Source: Arcobacter sp. F2176 (lineage in GTDB: Bacteria > Campylobacterota > Campylobacteria > Campylobacterales > Arcobacteraceae). From it: a stretch of DNA of 64,000 nucleotides. Position numbers and translations under genes: made by a program. Location of the stretch: NCBI RefSeq assembly GCF_004116465.1, contig NZ_PDJV01000004.1:1-64000 (forward strand), in the 5' to 3' direction. The notes beneath the pieces were generated by a model that saw only the letters and a list, made by a program, of their open reading frames with translations, did no database searches and was not told where the DNA came from. This document shows, piece by piece, positions 1,463-37,718 of the stretch. Position 1 is the stretch's first letter. Each line of letters opens with the position of its first letter.

Positions 1463-2706
1463 AAAAAGAATCAATATTTTTTACTATAACAATTAGTTTT
1501 TTCATATCTATATTTTTAGTTATAGCTAGTTTCATTATACTTGTACTTCATACTCAAGATGATAAAGAAAAGCATCTTTCTAAAAAATATTTACCAGTTG
1601 CAAAGATGGTATTAGAACAACAAAGAACAAATGGATTGACAAAGTTTTTTGTAGAGTCTTTATCAAATATGGATATGGAATTTATAAATGATATTGGAAA
1701 AATGAATGCAGTTTTATATAATCCCCAAACAAAAGTTGCTTTAGAGCGAAGATATAGAACAATTTTAGTTAGAGTTTTAGATTTACATGGTGATAGTTTT
1801 TTATTTATAAAAAGTGATGGTTTAGAAATAATGTTTAAAGATAGTGATTATAAACATGTGAATCCTTTGATCTCTTTAATAGTAGTTTTTACAGTATTGT
1901 TTATTACAATTATTCTATCTTTTATTACTACTTGGAAAAAACTATATCCAATCAAACTTTTAAAGGATAAAGTTAAAACCCTTGGTGAAGAAGATTTTGA
2001 TTTTGAATACCATACCAATGATTTAGATGAAGTTTCTCAATTAGCAATAGAGTTTAAAAATACAGCAAAGAAATTAAAAGACATAAAAGAATCAAGAAAT
2101 GTCTTTATTAGAAATATAATGCATGAACTAAAAACTCCTATTACTAAAGGTAAATTTTTAAGTGAGTTAGAAAATAGTGATGAAAATGCTGAAAAGATGA
2201 GAAGAGTATTTACAAGATTGGAATCGCTTATTAAAGAATTTACACAAATTGAAGAACTAATTTCTTCTACAAAAAATATCGTAAAAAACAACTATTTTCT
2301 AGATGACATTATAGACAATGCCACAGATATGCTTATGCTAGAAGATGATGTTATTATCTCAGAATATGAAAATAAAAAATTAAATGTTAATTTCAAACTT
2401 TTTTGTTTGGCAGTTAAAAATTTAATTGATAATGCAATAAAATACTCAGATGATAAAAAAGTGACTGTAAAAACAAATGAGAAAGATGAAATAATATTTG
2501 AAAATAAAGGAAAAGGTCTGAAATATTCCCTTGATAAATATTTCGAACCATTTTTTGCAAATGAGAGTAAAAGTAAAAATAGCTTTGGACTTGGTTTATA
2601 CATAGTAAACTCTATTCTTAAAGCAAATAATTGCATACTTAAATACGAATATAAAGATGGAATAAATATTTTTAAAATAGCTAAAAGTGAACAAAAGGAT
2701 AAATAA
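1459..2706 (+). CDS. ArsS-type sensor histidine kinase
   Basis: A 415-residue membrane kinase: transmembrane segment 1 at about residues 8-31, a sensing loop outside the membrane of about 100 residues, transmembrane segment 2 at about 137-157, a HAMP-like linker, and a dimerisation/phospho-acceptor helix with His222 in NIMHELKTPITKGK. That motif is characteristic of the ArsS/CrsS kinases of Helicobacter and relatives. The ATP-binding domain shows NLIDNAIKYS and SFGLGLYIV. It partners the overlapping response regulator. In Helicobacter the ArsRS pair senses acid; whether this kinase does so is inference only. Confidence 0.88.
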   Translation: MKKESIFFTITISFFISIFLVIASFIILVLHTQDDKEKHLSKKYLPVAKMVLEQQRTNGLTKFFVESLSNMDMEFINDIGKMNAVLYNPQTKVALERRYRTILVRVLDLHGDSFLFIKSDGLEIMFKDSDYKHVNPLISLIVVFTVLFITIILSFITTWKKLYPIKLLKDKVKTLGEEDFDFEYHTNDLDEVSQLAIEFKNTAKKLKDIKESRNVFIRNIMHELKTPITKGKFLSELENSDENAEKMRRVFTRLESLIKEFTQIEELISSTKNIVKNNYFLDDIIDNATDMLMLEDDVIISEYENKKLNVNFKLFCLAVKNLIDNAIKYSDDKKVTVKTNEKDEIIFENKGKGLKYSLDKYFEPFFANESKSKNSFGLGLYIVNSILKANNCILKYEYKDGINIFKIAKSEQKDK

Positions 2707-3842
2707 TATTTGATATTGCAATTATAGGGGCAGGAGCAAGTGGCTTGATGCTTGCAACACACTTAAAAAATGATAATGTTTGTTTAATAGACACTAATGC
2801 AAAGGTTGGTGCAAAAATTAAAGTATCAGGTGGAGCAAAGTGTAATATTACTAATAACAAAGTTTCGTCTAATAATTACCTAGGTGAAAATGATTTTGTA
2901 TCTTCAGTTTTAAAAGAGTTTTCAAATGAAGACTTAATTAGATTTTTAAAAAAACAAAATTTAGATTTCAACCTTAATGAAAAAATTGTAAAAGGAACTT
3001 TCTTTTGTAACACTTCTCAAGATGTTATTGATATGTTTTCAAAACTTATAAAAAATAAAAGAGTTTTTTTTAATACAACAGTAACAGATGTAAAGTGTGA
3101 AGATTTCTATAAAATAAAAACAAACAATAAAACAATAGAAGCAAAAAAATTAGTAATAGCAAGTGGAGGTTTGAGTTATCAAAGTTTGGGTGCTAGTTCT
3201 ATTGCTTTTGATATCGCAAAATCTTTTAATCATAAAATAAGTCCTTTAAATGCAGCCCTTGTAGGTTTTACTGTTCAAAAAGAACAGTTTTGGTTCAAAG
3301 AATTAAGTGGAATTTCTATGTTTGTAAAAGCAAGTGTGGAAAATAAGAGTTTTGAAGGAGGTCTTCTTTTTGCCCATAAAGGAATAACTGGACCTGTGAT
3401 TTTAAATAGTTCTTTATATTGGAAAAAAGGAAAGATGAGTATAGACTTTTTGCCAAATAAAACTTTTAAATCCTTTTTAAAAGGTAATAAAAATATCTCT
3501 TCAAGTTTTAATCTGCCCAAAAGATTTATGCAAGAGTTTTTAAAATCAGTTCAAATAGATGATAAAGCAATTAGTAGTTTGACAAAAGAAGAATTAAATA
3601 AATTAGAAGTTTTAAAAAACTATGAATTCTCCCCTGCTGGAAACTTTGGATATACAAAAGCAGAAGTTACAAAAGGTGGAGTTGAAGTTGATGAGATTGA
3701 TGTTAAAACCATGGAAAGCAAAATCAAAAAGGATTTATACTTTATAGGTGAAGCTTTGGATGTAACAGGCGAACTTGGAGGATTTAATTTTCAGTTTGCT
3801 TTTTCTTCTGCTTATGTATGTGCAAAAGAGCTAAATAAATAG
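2706..3842 (+). CDS. HI0933/YhiN-family NAD(P)/FAD-dependent flavoprotein, probable ATA start
   Basis: The product has an N-terminal dinucleotide-binding motif FDIAIIGAGASGLMLA, KVSGGAKCNIT, and a C-terminal GGFNFQFAFSSAY, all typical of the HI0933 family (about 380-400 residues; called aminoacetone oxidase family in some databases). The first ordinary in-frame start is TTG at 2745, inside the Rossmann motif, which would delete the FAD-binding loop. Reading upstream, the frame is open to 2703 with only ATA codons at 2703 and 2706. A Shine-Dalgarno AAGGA at 2695-2699 sits 6 nt before the ATA at 2706. I therefore place the start there (378 residues), overlapping the kinase stop. The substrate is unknown. 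Confidence 0.8.
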   Translation: MFDIAIIGAGASGLMLATHLKNDNVCLIDTNAKVGAKIKVSGGAKCNITNNKVSSNNYLGENDFVSSVLKEFSNEDLIRFLKKQNLDFNLNEKIVKGTFFCNTSQDVIDMFSKLIKNKRVFFNTTVTDVKCEDFYKIKTNNKTIEAKKLVIASGGLSYQSLGASSIAFDIAKSFNHKISPLNAALVGFTVQKEQFWFKELSGISMFVKASVENKSFEGGLLFAHKGITGPVILNSSLYWKKGKMSIDFLPNKTFKSFLKGNKNISSSFNLPKRFMQEFLKSVQIDDKAISSLTKEELNKLEVLKNYEFSPAGNFGYTKAEVTKGGVEVDEIDVKTMESKIKKDLYFIGEALDVTGELGGFNFQFAFSSAYVCAKELNK

Positions 3843-3844
3843 AT

Positions 3845-4654
3845 TTATAAAGCTCTTTTTTTGTTTATTTTTAGCGTTAAACTTAGTATAAATAAAACTA
3901 ATGAAGTTACCACAATAGTAGCACCACTTGGTAAAGATATATAAAATGAGACAAAAAGCCCAATTACAACAGCTAAAACTGCAAAAAGTACTGCCAATAA
4001 GCAAGTTATAAAAAAGCTTTTTTCAAATTGCATTGCAGAAATTACTGGCATAATCATTAAGGCACCTATTAATAGTACACCAATAATTTTTATGGATAAT
4101 CCAACAGTAATTGCCACAAGTGAAACTAACATATAATTTAAAAAACTTACATTTATTCCAGAAGCTTTTGCAACTTCTTCATCAAATGCCACAAAAAGTA
4201 ATTTTTGATAATTATTGATAATGAAAAAAGCTGATAAAACTCCAAATATACAAATTGTCCAAATATCTTCTTTTGAAACAGCAACAATTGAACCAAAGAG
4301 ATAACTAAATAAAGCTACATTAAAAGAGTTTGAAAGTGAAACTATAATAATTGCAAGTGCAAGGGCTGAAGATAAAAATATTGATAAAATAGAATCAGAA
4401 TATATATTATGGTTTTTTCTTAGGTATTCTATAAAAAGTGAAGCTAAAATGGCTATTATAATTGCACTATATGTCGTTGAGATTGAGAACAAAAAACCAA
4501 GGGCAACACCAAGTAGGGAAATATGAGCTAAAGCATCAGATAACATAGAATACCTTCTTACAACTACAAAAGTACCTAAGGTAGGTGCTAAAATTGCAAT
4601 AAAAATACCTGCTATAAAAGCTCTTATCATAAAAGAGTATTCAAAGATTTCCAT
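3845..4654 (-). CDS. znuB: Zinc/manganese ABC transporter permease (ZnuB-like)
   Basis: An integral membrane protein of the ABC-3 family with about eight hydrophobic helices; RRYSMLSDALAHISLLGVALG and the repeated GALMIMPVISA region are family hallmarks. It forms the membrane channel for the adjacent ATPase and binding protein. I chose the ATG at 4654 (MEIFEYS) because AAGGAA lies 6 nt upstream; a longer form starting at 4678 would have no ribosome site. The gene overlaps nothing after this correction and is 8 bp from znuC. It converges with the flavoprotein gene with only 2 bp between stops. Confidence 0.9.
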   Translation of the reverse strand: MEIFEYSFMIRAFIAGIFIAILAPTLGTFVVVRRYSMLSDALAHISLLGVALGFLFSISTTYSAIIIAILASLFIEYLRKNHNIYSDSILSIFLSSALALAIIIVSLSNSFNVALFSYLFGSIVAVSKEDIWTICIFGVLSAFFIINNYQKLLFVAFDEEVAKASGINVSFLNYMLVSLVAITVGLSIKIIGVLLIGALMIMPVISAMQFEKSFFITCLLAVLFAVLAVVIGLFVSFYISLPSGATIVVTSLVLFILSLTLKINKKRAL

Positions 4655-4662
4655 ATATTTCC

Positions 4663-5412
4663 TTAGTGATGATGGCAAATAATATTAGTGTCAATGCCAT
4701 ATAATTTACTCATTTGTTTATTATTTAATATTTCATGTGGAGTATGGCATGATAGAAGAGTTTGGTTAATACATAAAACTCTTTTTATATCATTTACAAT
4801 CACTCCTAAATCGTGAGTGACAAAAAGTATTGTGATATTATCTTCTTTATTTAATTTTTTTAATATTTCATAAAATTTTGTTTGAGAATTGGTATCTACA
4901 CCTGTATTTGGTTCATCAAGTATTAATAATTCTGGACTACTTATAAGTGCTCTAGCTATCATTACTCTTTGTCTTTGACCACCTGAAAGTTCAGAAACTC
5001 TTCTATTTTTCAAATCAGTAATTTCAATTTTTTCCATAATAGATTCAATTTTTTTATGATCTTCTTTTGATATTTTTGAAAACAAAGAAGTTTTATAGGC
5101 TAATCCAAGATTAATCACTTCTTGTACAGTAATAGGGAAACTACTGTCAATTAAAGTTGCTCGTTGTGGTACATATCCAATTTTATAATATTGTTTGAAT
5201 AAAGATTGTTTGGTATTAAATAGTTTAATATCTGCAATATTAGGATTTATTAATCCTAATATTATTTTCATTAAGGTACTTTTACCACCACCATTGGGAC
5301 CAATGATGGCAGCATATTCACCCCTTAATATTTCAAAAGATATATCTTGAAGGATATCTTTATATCCTAGGTTTTTTATATCAATTATGATATCAGAGAA
5401 TTTTATTGACAA
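4663..5412 (-). CDS. znuC: Zinc ABC transporter ATP-binding protein (ZnuC-like)
   Basis: A 249-residue ABC ATPase. Walker A is GPNGGGKST, the signature is LSGGQRQR, and Walker B is LLILDEPNTGVD; the switch histidine follows in FVTHDLG. The tail ends in CHHH, a metal-binding-looking cluster seen in some zinc/manganese importers. The start TTG at 5412 overlaps the znuA stop, implying translational coupling. It powers uptake through the ZnuB-like permease encoded just downstream. Zinc is favoured over manganese from the family match; iron or manganese cannot be excluded from sequence alone. Confidence 0.9.
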   Translation of the reverse strand: MSIKFSDIIIDIKNLGYKDILQDISFEILRGEYAAIIGPNGGGKSTLMKIILGLINPNIADIKLFNTKQSLFKQYYKIGYVPQRATLIDSSFPITVQEVINLGLAYKTSLFSKISKEDHKKIESIMEKIEITDLKNRRVSELSGGQRQRVMIARALISSPELLILDEPNTGVDTNSQTKFYEILKKLNKEDNITILFVTHDLGVIVNDIKRVLCINQTLLSCHTPHEILNNKQMSKLYGIDTNIICHHH

Positions 5413-6272
5413 TTCATTGCATCTTTTAATTTAGCTAAATTTTCTACCATAATAGAAACAAAACCAATATTTTCTTCATTTTGTTTTTGGGTTATATTTT
5501 CAACTGGACTTAGTTCATCTGTTTTAACATTTGCTTCATCAGCAATTGTTTTTGCTATTTTGTCACTTGCAAACTCTTCAAAAAATATTGTATGAATATT
5601 TTCTTTTTTTACTATTTTAATAAGCTCGGCAATTTGTTTAGCTGATGGTTCCTCATCCGGAGACATACCAGAAATAGAGTATTGTGTTATTCCATAATCA
5701 TTTGCTAAATATCCAAATGCATCATGATTTACAACAACTTTTTTATTTTTACAACTTTTTAAAGTCTGATATTTTGTTTGCAAAGTAGTTATTTCTTTTA
5801 GATATGTACTTGCATTTTTTTGATAACTTTTTTTGTTCGCAGGGTCTTTTTTGATTAAAAGAGATTCAACATTTTTTATCATCTTAATATAGTTATCAAA
5901 ACTTAGCCAATAGTGAGGATCATAAACTTTACCATCTTCAAACTCTTTATGGGTTGCTAGTTTTACATGTTTGCTCATATCAAATATTTTATCAGCTATT
6001 TCCATTGATTTTATAACTTTTGTACTCCAAGGTTCCATAACTTTACCACTAGTTATAAATAAATCACTTTTTGATAAAAGAGCCATACTTTTTGGATTTG
6101 GTTCAAAATCATGGGGTTCTGTTCCAAATGGAATTAAATTATTTAGAACAACATTTTTCCCACCAACTTCTTTAACTACACTATATAGTGGATATATAGT
6201 TGTTGTAACTGTTAATTTAGCAAACAAAACTGATGATGCTAATATACTTAATACTAAAATTTTTTTAAACAT
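5403..6272 (-). CDS. znuA: Periplasmic zinc-binding protein (ZnuA-like)
   Basis: A 289-residue cluster A-I substrate-binding protein. Signal peptide residues 1-18 (MFKKILVLSILASSVLFA). Metal-ligand histidines are visible in EPHDFEP, DPHYWLS and NHDAFGYLA, with the acidic ligand region in FFEEFASD. The histidine-rich loop found in some ZnuA proteins is nearly absent. I use the ATG at 6272 with AAAGG at about 6280-6284, not the upstream in-frame codon at 6323, because only the former begins with a signal peptide. First gene of a leftward znuA-znuC-znuB operon, preceded by two copies of a palindromic operator. Confidence 0.9.
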   Translation of the reverse strand: MFKKILVLSILASSVLFAKLTVTTTIYPLYSVVKEVGGKNVVLNNLIPFGTEPHDFEPNPKSMALLSKSDLFITSGKVMEPWSTKVIKSMEIADKIFDMSKHVKLATHKEFEDGKVYDPHYWLSFDNYIKMIKNVESLLIKKDPANKKSYQKNASTYLKEITTLQTKYQTLKSCKNKKVVVNHDAFGYLANDYGITQYSISGMSPDEEPSAKQIAELIKIVKKENIHTIFFEEFASDKIAKTIADEANVKTDELSPVENITQKQNEENIGFVSIMVENLAKLKDAMNCQ

Positions 6273-32018: not shown

Positions 32019-34019
32019 ATGATGCAGTTTAACTTTTTCTTAAAATTATTAAAAGATTCATTTAGAGATCTTCTTCCAATAATTTTAGTAATCTTATTCT
32101 TTCAATTAGCAATTTTACAAACAGTACCACCTGGGTGGATATCTACAACTATTGGTTTAATTATTGTAGCTGTTGGGCTTGCAATTTTTTTACAAGGTTT
32201 GGAAATAGGTATATTTCCAGTTGGGGAAAGCCTTGCTCGTGATTTTGCAAAATCTGGATGGACAATTTGGATTTTAATATTTGGTTTTATGATAGGTTTT
32301 GGTACAACTATTGCAGAACCAGCTCTTGCAGTTATTGCAGACAAGGCAGCTTCAATTTCTAGTGGTAGAATTGATGCTTCGGTTCTACGATTTGTTGTTG
32401 CAGGTTCTGTTGGTTTTGCAATTTTACTTGGTGTTTACAGAATAATAAAAGGTCATCCAATTCACTATTATATAATAGTAGGATATCTTTTTGTAGTAAG
32501 TATTACTTTTTTTGCTCCAAAAGAGATTATTGGACTTGCGTATGACTTAGGAGGAGTTACAACTTCTACTGTAACCGTTCCTTTAGTTGCAGCCCTTGGT
32601 ATTGGATTAGCTTCAAATATAAAAGGACGAAATCCTGTAATTGATGGATTTGGACTTATTGCTTTTGCTTCACTTACTCCTATGATTTTTGTACAAATTT
32701 ATGGAATAGCTGTTTATTCTTTGGTTGATGCAAAAGATGTTGCAGCAATCGCAATTAATCCAATAATCTCTTCACCAAAAGACATAACAATAAGTTCTGT
32801 GATAATGGGGATAATTGCAGTTATAAAAGATGTAACACCAATATTACTTATTATATTGTTTTTCCAATATGGTGTATTGAAAAAAAGCATTCAAAATATA
32901 AAAACTGTATTTTTAGGATTTGTTCTTGTTATTATTGGTTTATATGCATTTATATTAGGGTTAGAACTAGGGCTATTTACCCTTGGTGAAACAATGGCTT
33001 ATGAATTAACAAAAAGTAAGTCAGTATTAGTAATCTATGCCTTTGCCTTTGCCATTGGATTTTCTACAACTATGGCAGAACCTGCACTTATGGCCATTGC
33101 AAAAAAAGCAAAAGAGATTAGTGATGGTAGAATAAATGACTTTGCACTAAGACTGTTTGTTGCACTTGGCGTTGCCATTGGTATTGCTCTTGGTGCCTTT
33201 AGAATAGTTGATGGTGGACATATCCATTATTATATTATTGTAGGATATATTGTTGTTATAATCTTAACTTTTATAGCACCAAAGTATATTATTCCAATAG
33301 CTTATGATAGTGGTGGAGTTACAACTTCAACTGTAACTGTTCCTTTAGTAGCAGCACTTGGAATTGGACTTGCAACAAATATTCCAGGAAGAAGCCCACT
33401 TATTGATGGTTTTGGACTTATTGCTTTTGCTTCACTATTTCCTATGATTACAGTTATGTTGTATGGGATACTAACTGAAAAACTTGGAGTTAAGTCAGAT
33501 ACACAAATTGAAGCTGAAAATATCTTACGAGACAATTTAGTTGATGCTGAGAATATGGATTTAGCAACTGTAAATATTGATGGAAGTAATAGAAGACACT
33601 CATTACCGATGGATTTTTATGCGGTTGCAATAATAGTTCCAAAAGATAAAAAAATAGATGCAATACAAGCAGCTAGTAAAGCTGGTGCAAATGGTGTTAC
33701 AGTTTTAAGAGCAGATGGTATGGGACTTGGGAAAATGCACAATTTCTATCGAACATCTTTTGAAGCAAATGATTCTTTACTTCTATTTTTATTACCAAAA
33801 GCTAGGGTAAATCCTGTGATAAAATCAATTATTCACTCACTTCATATTACTACAGAAGGAAAAGGTATCGCTTTTGCTTTTCCTTTAACTCACATGAAAG
33901 GGATTAGTTTAAGTAGACATGATATTTTTCAAAATAGAAAAGATAGAAAAGATGGAAATGAAGAAAATGAAGAAAGTAATGAAAAAGAATTAACAAAAGA
34001 AGATGGAAGTAATAAATAA
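32019..34019 (+). CDS. DUF1538 membrane protein fused to a P-II-like domain
   Basis: A 666-residue protein. Two tandem DUF1538 units (about 3-245 and 265-495), each with many transmembrane helices; both contain the block GGVTTSTVTVPLVAALGIGLA and IDGFGLIAFASL (second in each unit). The C-terminal about 130 residues (YAVAIIVPKDKKIDAIQAAS onward) look like a P-II signal-protein fold. DUF1538 proteins resemble transporters; the P-II domain suggests control by energy or nitrogen status. The substrate is unknown. The ATG at 32019 is preceded by AAAAAGGTG; a second ATG follows at 32022. Confidence 0.85.
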   Translation: MMQFNFFLKLLKDSFRDLLPIILVILFFQLAILQTVPPGWISTTIGLIIVAVGLAIFLQGLEIGIFPVGESLARDFAKSGWTIWILIFGFMIGFGTTIAEPALAVIADKAASISSGRIDASVLRFVVAGSVGFAILLGVYRIIKGHPIHYYIIVGYLFVVSITFFAPKEIIGLAYDLGGVTTSTVTVPLVAALGIGLASNIKGRNPVIDGFGLIAFASLTPMIFVQIYGIAVYSLVDAKDVAAIAINPIISSPKDITISSVIMGIIAVIKDVTPILLIILFFQYGVLKKSIQNIKTVFLGFVLVIIGLYAFILGLELGLFTLGETMAYELTKSKSVLVIYAFAFAIGFSTTMAEPALMAIAKKAKEISDGRINDFALRLFVALGVAIGIALGAFRIVDGGHIHYYIIVGYIVVIILTFIAPKYIIPIAYDSGGVTTSTVTVPLVAALGIGLATNIPGRSPLIDGFGLIAFASLFPMITVMLYGILTEKLGVKSDTQIEAENILRDNLVDAENMDLATVNIDGSNRRHSLPMDFYAVAIIVPKDKKIDAIQAASKAGANGVTVLRADGMGLGKMHNFYRTSFEANDSLLLFLLPKARVNPVIKSIIHSLHITTEGKGIAFAFPLTHMKGISLSRHDIFQNRKDRKDGNEENEESNEKELTKEDGSNK

Positions 34020-34335
34020 TTTAGAACAGATAAAAGAGAAGATAGCCTCGAAAGAGGCTTTGATTATATACTTTTCTTCTAAAAATTGTTCAGTATGCAA
34101 AGTATTAAAACCAAAGATAGAAAAAGAAATTTCAACTTATTTCGATAAAATTAGTTTTTTCGAAATAAGAATTGATGAGAGCTTAGAAATAAGTTCTTAT
34201 TTTTCAGTATTTCAAGCTCCTACAATTTTATTTTACCTTGATGGGAAAGAGTTTTTAAGAGAAGGAAAAAATATAAGCATAAGTGTTTTTATTGATGCAA
34301 TAAAAAGGCCTTATGAGATGTTTTATGGAGAATAA
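34003..34335 (+). CDS. Thioredoxin-like protein
   Basis: A 110-residue thioredoxin fold with the active site CSVC (residues about 31-34, in FSSKNCSVCKVLKPK) and cis-Pro in FQAPTILFYLDG. No signal peptide, so it should be cytoplasmic. The gene overlaps the end of the DUF1538/P-II gene by 17 bp and is followed directly by a haem-binding protein gene. The redox partner is unknown. Confidence 0.82.
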   Translation: MEVINNLEQIKEKIASKEALIIYFSSKNCSVCKVLKPKIEKEISTYFDKISFFEIRIDESLEISSYFSVFQAPTILFYLDGKEFLREGKNISISVFIDAIKRPYEMFYGE

Positions 34336-34755
34336 ATGAAAATTACTATTTTAATATTTTTTATAGTGTTGCTTTTAATGCAAGCAATACAAATAGACAA
34401 AACAAACCCCGTTACTGACAAGTCTTTAGAGATACAAGCACCAAAAGAGGTTAAAGTTTTATTAAAAAATGCTTGTTATGATTGCCACTCAAGTGAAACT
34501 ATTTGGCCATGGTATAGTTCAATCGCACCTGGATCTTGGATAATAGAAGGGCATGTGGTTGATGGAAGAAAAGCATTAGATTTTAGTACTTGGGCAAATT
34601 ATACAAAAGAAGAAAAAGAAAAAAAACTTAAAAAAATACATAGAACAGTTTATGCTGCTATGCCTTTGGCTAGTTATATTTGGATACATAAAGAAGCCAA
34701 TTTAACAAAAGAACAAAGAGCCTTGATAAGAGAATGGACAGGAGTTAGAAAATAG
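34336..34755 (+). CDS. Haem-binding domain protein (PF14376-like)
   Basis: A 139-residue protein with an N-terminal hydrophobic signal (ITILIFFIVLLLMQAIQ) and a CxxCH c-type haem motif in CYDCHSSETIWPWY, followed by APGSWIIEGHV. These features match the haem-binding domain family. It is expected to be exported and membrane-anchored, carrying one haem. The gene abuts the thioredoxin-like gene and its stop overlaps the mutS start. Confidence 0.85.
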   Translation: MKITILIFFIVLLLMQAIQIDKTNPVTDKSLEIQAPKEVKVLLKNACYDCHSSETIWPWYSSIAPGSWIIEGHVVDGRKALDFSTWANYTKEEKEKKLKKIHRTVYAAMPLASYIWIHKEANLTKEQRALIREWTGVRK

Positions 34756-37718
34756 TGGTAAATGCTGAGCTTAATGACCTTTTACAAGATAAAAAAGAAC
34801 TTCTAACAATAACTTATTTTAAACTTCAAAAAAAGTTTGAAGAAAAATATGGATCAAATACTGTAGTTCTTATGGAAATAGGAACCTTTTTTGAAGTTTA
34901 TGAAGTAAATAATGAAGAAGAACAAATAGGTAAAGCAAAAGAGATTGCTGAGCTTTTAAATATACAATTGACAAGAAAAAACAAGGCAATTTTAGAAAAC
35001 TCTAAAGAGAATCCAATTATGGCAGGAGTTCCTGCAATTTCATTAGAAAAACATCTTGCTAGAATAATTGGTGAACAAAAGTACACAGTTGTATTAATAA
35101 GACAAAAAGGTCTTCCTCCTAAAGTTAGCAGATATATTGATACAGTTGTAAGTCCTGGGACAAACTTTGATTTTGTAATTGACCAAGACGAAAATAATAT
35201 TACTTCACTTACAATAGATTGTAATAAAGGAATCTTTTCTGTTGGTTATAGTGCCATTGATGTTACAACTGGAAAGTGTTATTACAATGAAGTTCATGGA
35301 ACAAGCGAAGATAAAAATTTTGCCCTTGATGAGTGCTTCAATTATATGAATATGCACAAAACAAATGAGGTAGTTATCTCCTTTTGTGATAAAGCAATAA
35401 ATCAAAAAGAGATAATAGAATATCTTGAATTATCTCATAAAACTTTTCATATAAGTTCATTTAGACCAAAAATTGTTTATCAAAATGAGTTATTTAAAAA
35501 TGTATTCAACATAGAATCACTTCTAACCTCAATAGAACATCTTGATATGGAAAGAGTTCCTTTAGCTACTGAATCATTAGCAGTGTTGATTGATTTTGTA
35601 ATTGGGCATGATGCTAAAATTATTCAAAAATTATCTTTCCCTCAAAAGCTAGATATTAGCAGATACATTTATCTTGGAAATAATGCCTTAGAACAATTAA
35701 ATATAATAGAAACTTCTCATAATCCATCTTTAATAAAAATAATAAATAATACTTCAACTGCTATGGGTAAAAGACTTTTAAAAGAGAGACTTACACATCC
35801 TGTAAAAGATGAAAAAGAGTTACTTAGACGATATGCTTTATCAAAAGAGTTATATGATTATCATACTCCAATTGAAAGTGAATTAGCAAATATTTATGAT
35901 ATAGAAAGATTAACTAGAAGAATTAAACTCTCAAGACTTCATCCCTTTGAATTAAATTATTTATATGATTCACTTATTAGTATCAAAGAAGTAGTGGCTT
36001 TTATGGAAAACTATAAGTTTTTTACAGCACCTTGTACATCTGCTGAGTTACAGATGTTTATTGACTCTATTGATTCTACTTTTGATTTATCTATTAGTGG
36101 CAAGTATATGCTAAAAGATGTGGAAGCAAATATGATTTGTGAAGGAATCAATACAAAAATTGATGAGCTTACAAATGAAAATAAAAAATTAGTAGATAAA
36201 TTAGATATTTTAAGAGTGCATATATTAGGATTCTTAAAATCAAATGATCAAAACTTTGTTAGTATTCAAAGACTTGATAAAGAAGGGTTTTATTTAGGAC
36301 TTACAAAAAGCAGATTTAATCTTATGAGAGAAGAACTTTTAAACTCTCATCTGATAATAGATGATGAGCTACTTTTATTTAAAGATTTTAAAATAAAAGT
36401 ACAAACAAATTCTGTAAAAATAACTTGTAAACTAACAGAAGATATTTCAGATAAATATGTTCATAATTTAAGAAAAATTATTGAGTTAAATAAACTTGTT
36501 TTTAAAGAAAAACTTCTGGAATTTGAGAAAAAGTTTGCAGTATTATTGGAAGAGTTAGTTCAATTTATTGCTGAAATTGATTTAACAGTTTCAAATATAA
36601 AAACAGCTAAAAAACATAATTATTCACCTCCAAAAATAGTAAAAACTAAAGATGATGAAAGTTTTATTGAACTTATAGATTTAAGACATCCTATAATTGA
36701 ACATGGAGAAGAGCAGGGTATTTATGTGCCTAATGATATTATTTTAGGAGAACTTAGTCTTGCAAGTGATGAGTACAAAAATAATGTAATCATTAAAAAC
36801 TCAAATCCAATAAATATGTTTAATAACAAAATGCATGGTGTTTTACTTTATGGAATAAATTCAAGTGGAAAATCTTCTCTTATGAAATCAATAGGAATAG
36901 CAGTAATTTTAGCTCAAGCTGGATTTTATGTACCGTGTAAATCAATGAGATTCTCTATTTTTGATGCAGTATTTACAAGAATTTCAGGAGCTGATAATAT
37001 TGCAAAAGGATTATCTTCTTTTGCAGTTGAGATGTTAGAACTTAAAAATATATTTAATAGAGCTACTAAGAATTCACTTGTACTTGGTGATGAGATAAGT
37101 CATAGTACTGAAACTATGAGTGGAGTTAGTATTGTGGCAAGTGCTATATTAAAACTAGCAAAATTAGAATCAATTTTTATGTTTGCTACACACTTACATC
37201 AACTACCTGAACTTCCAGAAATAGAAAAACTAAAAAATATAATATGTCTACACTTATCTGTTATGTATGAAGATAGTGAAGATAAACTTATATTTAATAG
37301 AAAACTTCAATATGGAAGTGGAAGTAGTATGTATGGTTTAGAGTATGCTAAATCACTTCATATGGATAAAGAGTTCCTTAAAATGGCAAATGATATAAGA
37401 AAAAAACTAACAGATGATTATGAACCAATTGAGAGAATTTCACAAAGAAAAACTTCAAAATACAATAAAGACCTTATTGTTTCTACTTGTGTAATATGTG
37501 GAAAAAATGTTGATGATGTACATCACATAAAAGAGCAATCTAGGGCAAATAAAGATGGCTTCATAGGTCATGTAAATGCAAATCACAAATATAATCTAAT
37601 ACCACTATGTAAAGAACATCATAAAATGGTTCATGAAGGCAAAATAAATGTAAATGGATTTATTGCTACTTCAAAAGGTTTGGAATTACATTATACGATG
37701 GTGGATGAAGAAAAATAA
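34755..37718 (+). CDS. MutS7-type mismatch-recognition ATPase with C-terminal HNH nuclease domain
   Basis: A 987-residue protein. The N-terminal MutS domain I has GTFFEVYE, a variant of the canonical mismatch-reading FxE motif; core domain III spans about 290-600; the ATPase has Walker A GINSSGKSS near residues 699-707, then LGDEISHSTE and FATHLHQL. The tail (about 910-975) has CVIC, DVHHIKEQ and LCKEHHKMVHEGK, an HNH nuclease fold. This fused layout is the MutS7 subfamily, described in marine epsilonproteobacteria and octocoral mitochondria. Start is GTG overlapping the preceding stop. Confidence 0.88.
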   Translation: MVNAELNDLLQDKKELLTITYFKLQKKFEEKYGSNTVVLMEIGTFFEVYEVNNEEEQIGKAKEIAELLNIQLTRKNKAILENSKENPIMAGVPAISLEKHLARIIGEQKYTVVLIRQKGLPPKVSRYIDTVVSPGTNFDFVIDQDENNITSLTIDCNKGIFSVGYSAIDVTTGKCYYNEVHGTSEDKNFALDECFNYMNMHKTNEVVISFCDKAINQKEIIEYLELSHKTFHISSFRPKIVYQNELFKNVFNIESLLTSIEHLDMERVPLATESLAVLIDFVIGHDAKIIQKLSFPQKLDISRYIYLGNNALEQLNIIETSHNPSLIKIINNTSTAMGKRLLKERLTHPVKDEKELLRRYALSKELYDYHTPIESELANIYDIERLTRRIKLSRLHPFELNYLYDSLISIKEVVAFMENYKFFTAPCTSAELQMFIDSIDSTFDLSISGKYMLKDVEANMICEGINTKIDELTNENKKLVDKLDILRVHILGFLKSNDQNFVSIQRLDKEGFYLGLTKSRFNLMREELLNSHLIIDDELLLFKDFKIKVQTNSVKITCKLTEDISDKYVHNLRKIIELNKLVFKEKLLEFEKKFAVLLEELVQFIAEIDLTVSNIKTAKKHNYSPPKIVKTKDDESFIELIDLRHPIIEHGEEQGIYVPNDIILGELSLASDEYKNNVIIKNSNPINMFNNKMHGVLLYGINSSGKSSLMKSIGIAVILAQAGFYVPCKSMRFSIFDAVFTRISGADNIAKGLSSFAVEMLELKNIFNRATKNSLVLGDEISHSTETMSGVSIVASAILKLAKLESIFMFATHLHQLPELPEIEKLKNIICLHLSVMYEDSEDKLIFNRKLQYGSGSSMYGLEYAKSLHMDKEFLKMANDIRKKLTDDYEPIERISQRKTSKYNKDLIVSTCVICGKNVDDVHHIKEQSRANKDGFIGHVNANHKYNLIPLCKEHHKMVHEGKINVNGFIATSKGLELHYTMVDEEK

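Follow-up and report, generated by a model that had tools for sequence, protein, structure and literature searches.

A MutS7 protein with a C-terminal HNH domain in Arcobacter sp. F2176, a candidate for mismatch recognition and incision in a single polypeptide

MutS7 and related MutS proteins

MutS7 is a published and named family of MutS proteins reported from epsilonproteobacteria, Mimiviridae, and octocoral mitochondria (PMC3166940; PMC6163669). Its occurrence in Arcobacter has also been published, with the genus named in the MutS7 tree (PMC6163669), and mismatch repair by a single polypeptide was already proposed for the octocoral mtMutS (PMC3166940). Domains II and IV were stated not to be found in the family (PMC3166940; PMC6163669). 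No MutS7 protein biochemistry was found in the open-access literature searched.

The window analyzed here, a stretch of 64,000 nucleotides from Arcobacter sp. F2176 (contig NZ_PDJV01000004.1), carried an uninterrupted single ORF of 987 residues (Table 1) that had originally been predicted as a MutS7-HNH fusion in one polypeptide resembling the epsilonproteobacterial and octocoral mitochondrial proteins. The prediction was borne out by Pfam domains I, III, and V followed by HNH, and the protein had the I-III-V-HNH order, the HHNH residues, and the organism group in common with the published MutS7 proteins (PMC3166940; PMC6163669). Orthologue and fold searches returned Campylobacterota orthologues and giant-virus fold matches as its closest relatives. 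The best sequence matches were Arcobacter contigs, and a 98% identical orthologue was present in a congeneric genome of 3.19 Mb. The present copy is therefore an ordinary MutS7 orthologue and not a new kind of protein, as the family had been published, including from Arcobacter, and single-protein repair had been proposed. It showed no difference of substance from published MutS7, with the diverged domains II and IV suggested here having been published as absent. The evidence on these two domains may be new to readers, as may the G-run comparison and the natural HNH losses described below.

The protein shares with MutS1 of E. coli and Thermus the mismatch motif, lever and clamp, ATPase, and overall fold, whereas it adds an HNH domain and its genome lacks a MutL partner. 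The MutS1 family cut-offs were not reached (TIGR01070, 283 versus 641.7 bits; NF003810, 368 versus 480 bits). Plant MSH1 likewise combines MutS with a C-terminal nuclease and an atypical repair mechanism has been proposed for it, but its GIY-YIG domain belongs to another nuclease superfamily and the published tree places it in a different MutS lineage (PMC12292046). MutS2, which is also encoded in the present genome, similarly carries the MutS ATPase and a C-terminal nuclease-type domain; it differs in lacking domain I and ending in Smr, neither of which applied to the present protein. A viral origin of this copy was rejected since no IMG/VR relative was retrieved with patterns from the bacterial alignment, which giant-virus MutS7 could escape, while phage and plasmid records held only ordinary MutS at approximately 25% identity. 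A defense system was also rejected due to the lack of a PADLOC match.

Domains, conserved residues, and gene context

MutS_I, MutS_III, and MutS_V all exceeded the curated Pfam cut-offs in the whole protein, and the three domains occurred in that order in all 31 relatives. The HNH/DUF968 match was slightly under the cut-off when the whole protein was queried, and the C-terminal tail alone cleared the cut-offs for both DUF968 and HNH_2. Orthologues with 84-98% identity gave dN/dS ratios of approximately 0.03-0.17 across the MutS and HNH parts, with those of the HNH part (0.03-0.12) comparable to the MutS part. A chance ORF was ruled out by this identity and the low dN/dS, and as judged from these ratios, purifying selection acts on both parts.

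Table 1. Features of the mutS7 locus, with positions in the window and supporting evidence.
Feature	Position	Strand	Evidence and remarks
Thioredoxin-like gene, same gene run	34003-34335	+	PF00085, E 1.4e-12
Haem-binding-domain (Haem_bd) protein gene	34336-34755	+	PF14376, E 1e-42; probably not a functional partner
AGGAG ribosome-binding-like sequence	34740-34744	+	Sequence reading; 10 bases ahead of GTG, within upstream gene
MutS7-HNH coding sequence	34755-37718	+	987 aa, GTG start; ORF call, Pfam, full-length orthologue alignments
MutS domain I (mismatch recognition), residues 33-139	34851-35171	+	PF01624, 35.4 bits, cut-off 20.6
Mismatch motif F45-F46-E47 (Phe-X-Glu)	34887-34895	+	F45, E47 invariant in both alignments
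Connector (domain II)-like region, residues 146-235	35190-35459	+	Strand/helix order in model m303f26b482a1; PF05188 weak in 20/31 relatives, missed by Pfam here; fold aligned to E. coli MutS (18-893)
MutS lever (domain III), residues 310-613	35682-36593	+	PF05192, 81.9 bits
Clamp (domain IV)-like insert within lever, residues 498-558	~36246-36428	+	Model strands 503-557; PF05190 in 3/31 relatives, missed by Pfam here
MutS domain V ATPase, residues 697-885	36843-37409	+	PF00488, 153 bits
Walker A GINSSGKSS (700-708)	36852-36878	+	G700, N702, S703, G705, K706, S707, S708 invariant
Walker B LVLGDE (775-780)	37077-37094	+	D779, E780 invariant
HNH nuclease domain, residues 912-982 (CxxC, HH, N, CxxHH, H)	37488-37700	+	PF06147/PF13391; invariant residues; beta-beta-alpha order in separate model

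Two alignments, one with 19 and the other with 31 sequences, were used to judge residue conservation. The Walker A motif was intact as originally predicted, and its key residues, the Walker B pair, and the ATP-site H813 did not vary. The mismatch motif GTFFEVYE had been described as a variant; it retains the canonical form as G43-x-F45-F46-E47 and, by its sequence, is the ordinary Phe-X-Glu of E. coli MutS (GDFYE). Based on the GxF[YF]E pattern and on what is established about MutS, we take F45-F46-E47 to be the equivalent of E. coli MutS F36-Y37-E38. The predicted C-terminal HNH domain was also upheld, with C912, C915, H923, H924, N947, C952, H955, H956, and H960 invariant in both alignments and the His-His-Asn-His signature formed by H923, H924, N947, and H956.

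The model of the full-length protein (mean pLDDT 76) aligned to the structure of E. coli MutS with a bound mismatch, the alignment spanning residues 18-893 and comprising 724 residues (Z 35.4, rmsd 5.2). Giant-virus MutS were the top viral fold matches, with giant-virus MutS7 matching over the full length, e.g., the “MutS subfamily 7” of Tetraselmis virus 1. The connector and clamp regions matched MutS in secondary structure within the model and, as weak Pfam matches were also present in relatives (Table 1), domains II and IV have probably diverged in MutS7 and are not missing. Modeled alone, the HNH tail had a moderate pLDDT of 71 and showed the strand-strand-helix order at its motif. A fold search with this model gave weak matches to many HNH enzymes (e.g., Gme HNH 4h9d) with unrelated folds mixed in, and a search of solved structures with the HNH profile returned nothing significant. 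Cutting of DNA by the domain is thus a prediction from its residues and a moderate model.

Upstream of mutS7, the TAG stop of the Haem_bd gene overlaps the GTG start by one base (TAGTG) at 34755. The translational coupling of the two genes claimed in the original prediction is plausible, while a functional link was rejected. The Haem_bd and thioredoxin-like genes were found near MutS7 only in Arcobacteraceae and were not always adjacent, so that the arrangement represents family-level gene order; in two Arcobacteraceae contigs (L055 and L056) the Haem_bd gene lay elsewhere, several kb from MutS7, and in other families it was absent from the vicinity. Further upstream, positions 32019-34019 (+) encode a 666-aa protein in which two antiporter halves (DUF1538 twice), one UmpA-like and the other UmpB-like, are joined to a P-II signaling domain at the C-terminus.

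Distribution, natural variants, and long G runs

The original prediction recommended a check for further mutS or mutL genes, and the genome of Arcobacter sp. F2176 was found to encode a single other MutS, a MutS2 with Smr in a separate gene. MutH was absent from this genome and MutL was not found in it, with TIGR00585 giving only a 25-bit partial match. Across the order, MutL_C (PF08676) was identified in none of 150 genomes compared to 11 of 14 control genomes. MutS7, scored from translated matches with some genomes being fragmented, was present in 91 of the 150 genomes and in 94 of 104 from the family Arcobacteraceae. In a sample of 200 genomes from the phylum, all 50 with a MutS7 match came from the present order. 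According to a reading of the match list, the end of the HNH domain was reached in 89 of the 91 matches, the other two being a match truncated at the end of a contig and a real loss. A MutS2-sized protein was kept in all nine genomes examined that lacked MutS7. In addition, both genomes examined from family f9 encoded a pair of short MutS-like ATPases and no MutS7; the genes overlap (L121:909-2441 and 2438-3940), encode approximately 500 aa each, and occur in a family with few long G runs. When considered as a MutS7 substitute, the pair matched KamC, MutS1, and MutS2 only with scores under the cut-offs.

Several natural variants of MutS7 were identified. In the one-contig Arcobacteraceae genome G300 (L122:482-3232; L125:1-18010), a mobile element of approximately 17 kb lies inside mutS7, inserted just before the HNH CxxC codons and following ...FAST, such that the MutS part ends in FKSDF-stop and the HNH remainder stays open approximately 17 kb downstream (L125:17763-17987). 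The element carries two tyrosine recombinases with an adjoining large ORF, a type I restriction system, a KwaB-like gene, and a stand-alone HNH ORF of 92 aa (L125:17225-17503, -) sharing 49% identity with the HNH of MutS7, SKYN lead-in included. Its 740-aa protein had relatives in only six of 399 genomes of the order, and a 33% identical relative is encoded away from mutS7 in the F2176 genome (G000:C23:18889-21006). Genome G289 has a mutS7 frameshift through an apparent four-base loss at the G300 element site (L123 ~2328-2337, apparently the same contig as L051), possibly an excision scar or an assembly error. The reduced 1.3-Mb genome G063 encodes a 784-aa MutS7 without the HNH and without residues ~450-590 (L114:1128-3479). 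A second MutS7 paralogue of approximately 650-680 aa, lacking domain I and with a degenerate HNH motif, was found in G137 (L115:1225-3258) and a similar copy, also of approximately 650-680 aa and without domain I, in G254. Finally, G326 has a second copy of the mutS7 HNH end 1.7 kb downstream of the first (L124:3338-3640 and 5359-5664), with approximately 98% DNA identity and a 361-aa ORF in between.

If MutS7 carries out slippage repair, long homopolymers would be expected to expand once it is lost, a prediction that was compared across genomes. G9 was counted in overlapping windows on both strands for the 150 genomes of the order and for all 104 Arcobacteraceae. The median across the order was 0.36 G9 windows/Mb with MutS7 versus 12.9 without (P 6e-11), and permutation within the six families holding both states gave P 0.011. 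Within Arcobacteraceae, the means were 0.49 versus 6.79 G9 windows/Mb (P 2e-5), with the same direction among genomes of ≤2.1 Mb (P 6e-4), and in genus g3 each of the three genomes lacking MutS7 exceeded every one of the five that have it. The composition-controlled G9/G7 ratio gave P 2e-7 overall and P 0.20 without families f10, f13, and f14, while collapsing Arcobacteraceae to genus gave P 0.10. Exceptions were family f9, with few long G runs despite the lack of MutS7, and G297 that had MutS7 together with 34 G9 windows. The association fits an anti-slippage role and, being confounded by ancestry and lifestyle and with these exceptions, is supporting but not decisive. A lack of G:C tracts was reported in the 2007 A. 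butzleri genome paper, where functional repair was suggested and credited to MutS2 and DnaQ-type exonucleases; MutS7 is not mentioned in that passage (PMC2147049).

Proposed repair mechanism and alternatives

The reading considered probable is that a MutS7 dimer detects mismatches and small loops and that its own HNH nicks the DNA, replacing MutL and MutH. The dimer would recognize a mismatch or small insertion/deletion loop via the Phe-X-Glu wedge, clamp, and ATPase, and subsequently move as a clamp with ATP. The C-terminal HNH would nick the DNA near the lesion, and a helicase, exonuclease, polymerase, and ligase would complete the repair. MutS7 would thereby be the mismatch-repair initiator in the present genome and, because its HNH itself would nick, neither MutL nor MutH would be needed. 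This proposal builds on the observed domain order, intact residues, purifying selection, predicted MutS fold, absence of MutL and MutH, and G-run signal, from which we infer mismatch binding, nicking, the coupling of the two, and strand choice. More tentatively, it is possible that MutS7-HNH alone provides the recognition and incision of a MutL-free repair in Campylobacterota, and that its repeated loss opened the way for the long G runs prone to slippage (phase-variable loci) in lineages of the Campylobacter and Helicobacter type.

The HNH domain is closest to DUF968/HNH_2, and outside Campylobacterota the proteins most closely related to it are stand-alone HNH/DUF968 proteins of phages. Plant MSH1, which has been studied most among the MutS-nuclease fusions, suppresses both ectopic recombination and point mutations (PMC12292046). 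These observations would suit a MutS7 acting mainly on recombination intermediates (D-loops and junctions), with the HNH cutting branched DNA and limiting recombination between homeologous sequences or short repeats, a role that has been proposed for plant MSH1 and MutS2. For MutS7 such a role is unlikely, as domain I with its Phe-X-Glu is fully conserved in MutS7, unlike in MutS2 that lacks this domain, and the association with G runs argues for slippage repair.

With regard to the type of cut, a MutS dimer would bring two HNH domains, one per strand, and no strand-discrimination signal was found. Both are compatible with MutS7 finding mismatches and making double-strand breaks that are repaired by recombination instead of by nick and excision, and a model of the same kind has been published for MSH1 (PMC12292046). 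This is improbable to a greater degree than the role in recombination, since breaks would come at a high cost in cells having few copies of the chromosome, and some HNH enzymes nick, including the weak fold match Gme HNH 4h9d. The HNH-less MutS7 of G063 and the G300 genome, that still has one G9 window with its HNH split off by the mobile element, suggested in turn that the HNH could be a dispensable add-on to a MutS7 serving only as a mismatch sensor with a separate nuclease. The invariance of the HNH residues and the purifying selection on them in nearly all members make this the most doubtful of the alternatives.

Detection of mismatches and nicking by MutS7 itself is therefore the preferred reading, and one-protein repair is directly testable in Arcobacter sp. 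F2176, which has an intact MutS7 and no MutL or MutH. The scarcity of long G runs is tied here to the presence of MutS7; the A. butzleri paper raised the question of whether functional mismatch repair accounts for the lack of such tracts, but considered MutS2 (PMC2147049). If the mechanism is true, it would mean that bacteria can repair mismatches in the absence of MutL by means of one protein that both detects and cuts, and would explain the mutS of octocoral mitochondria and the MutS7 of giant viruses.
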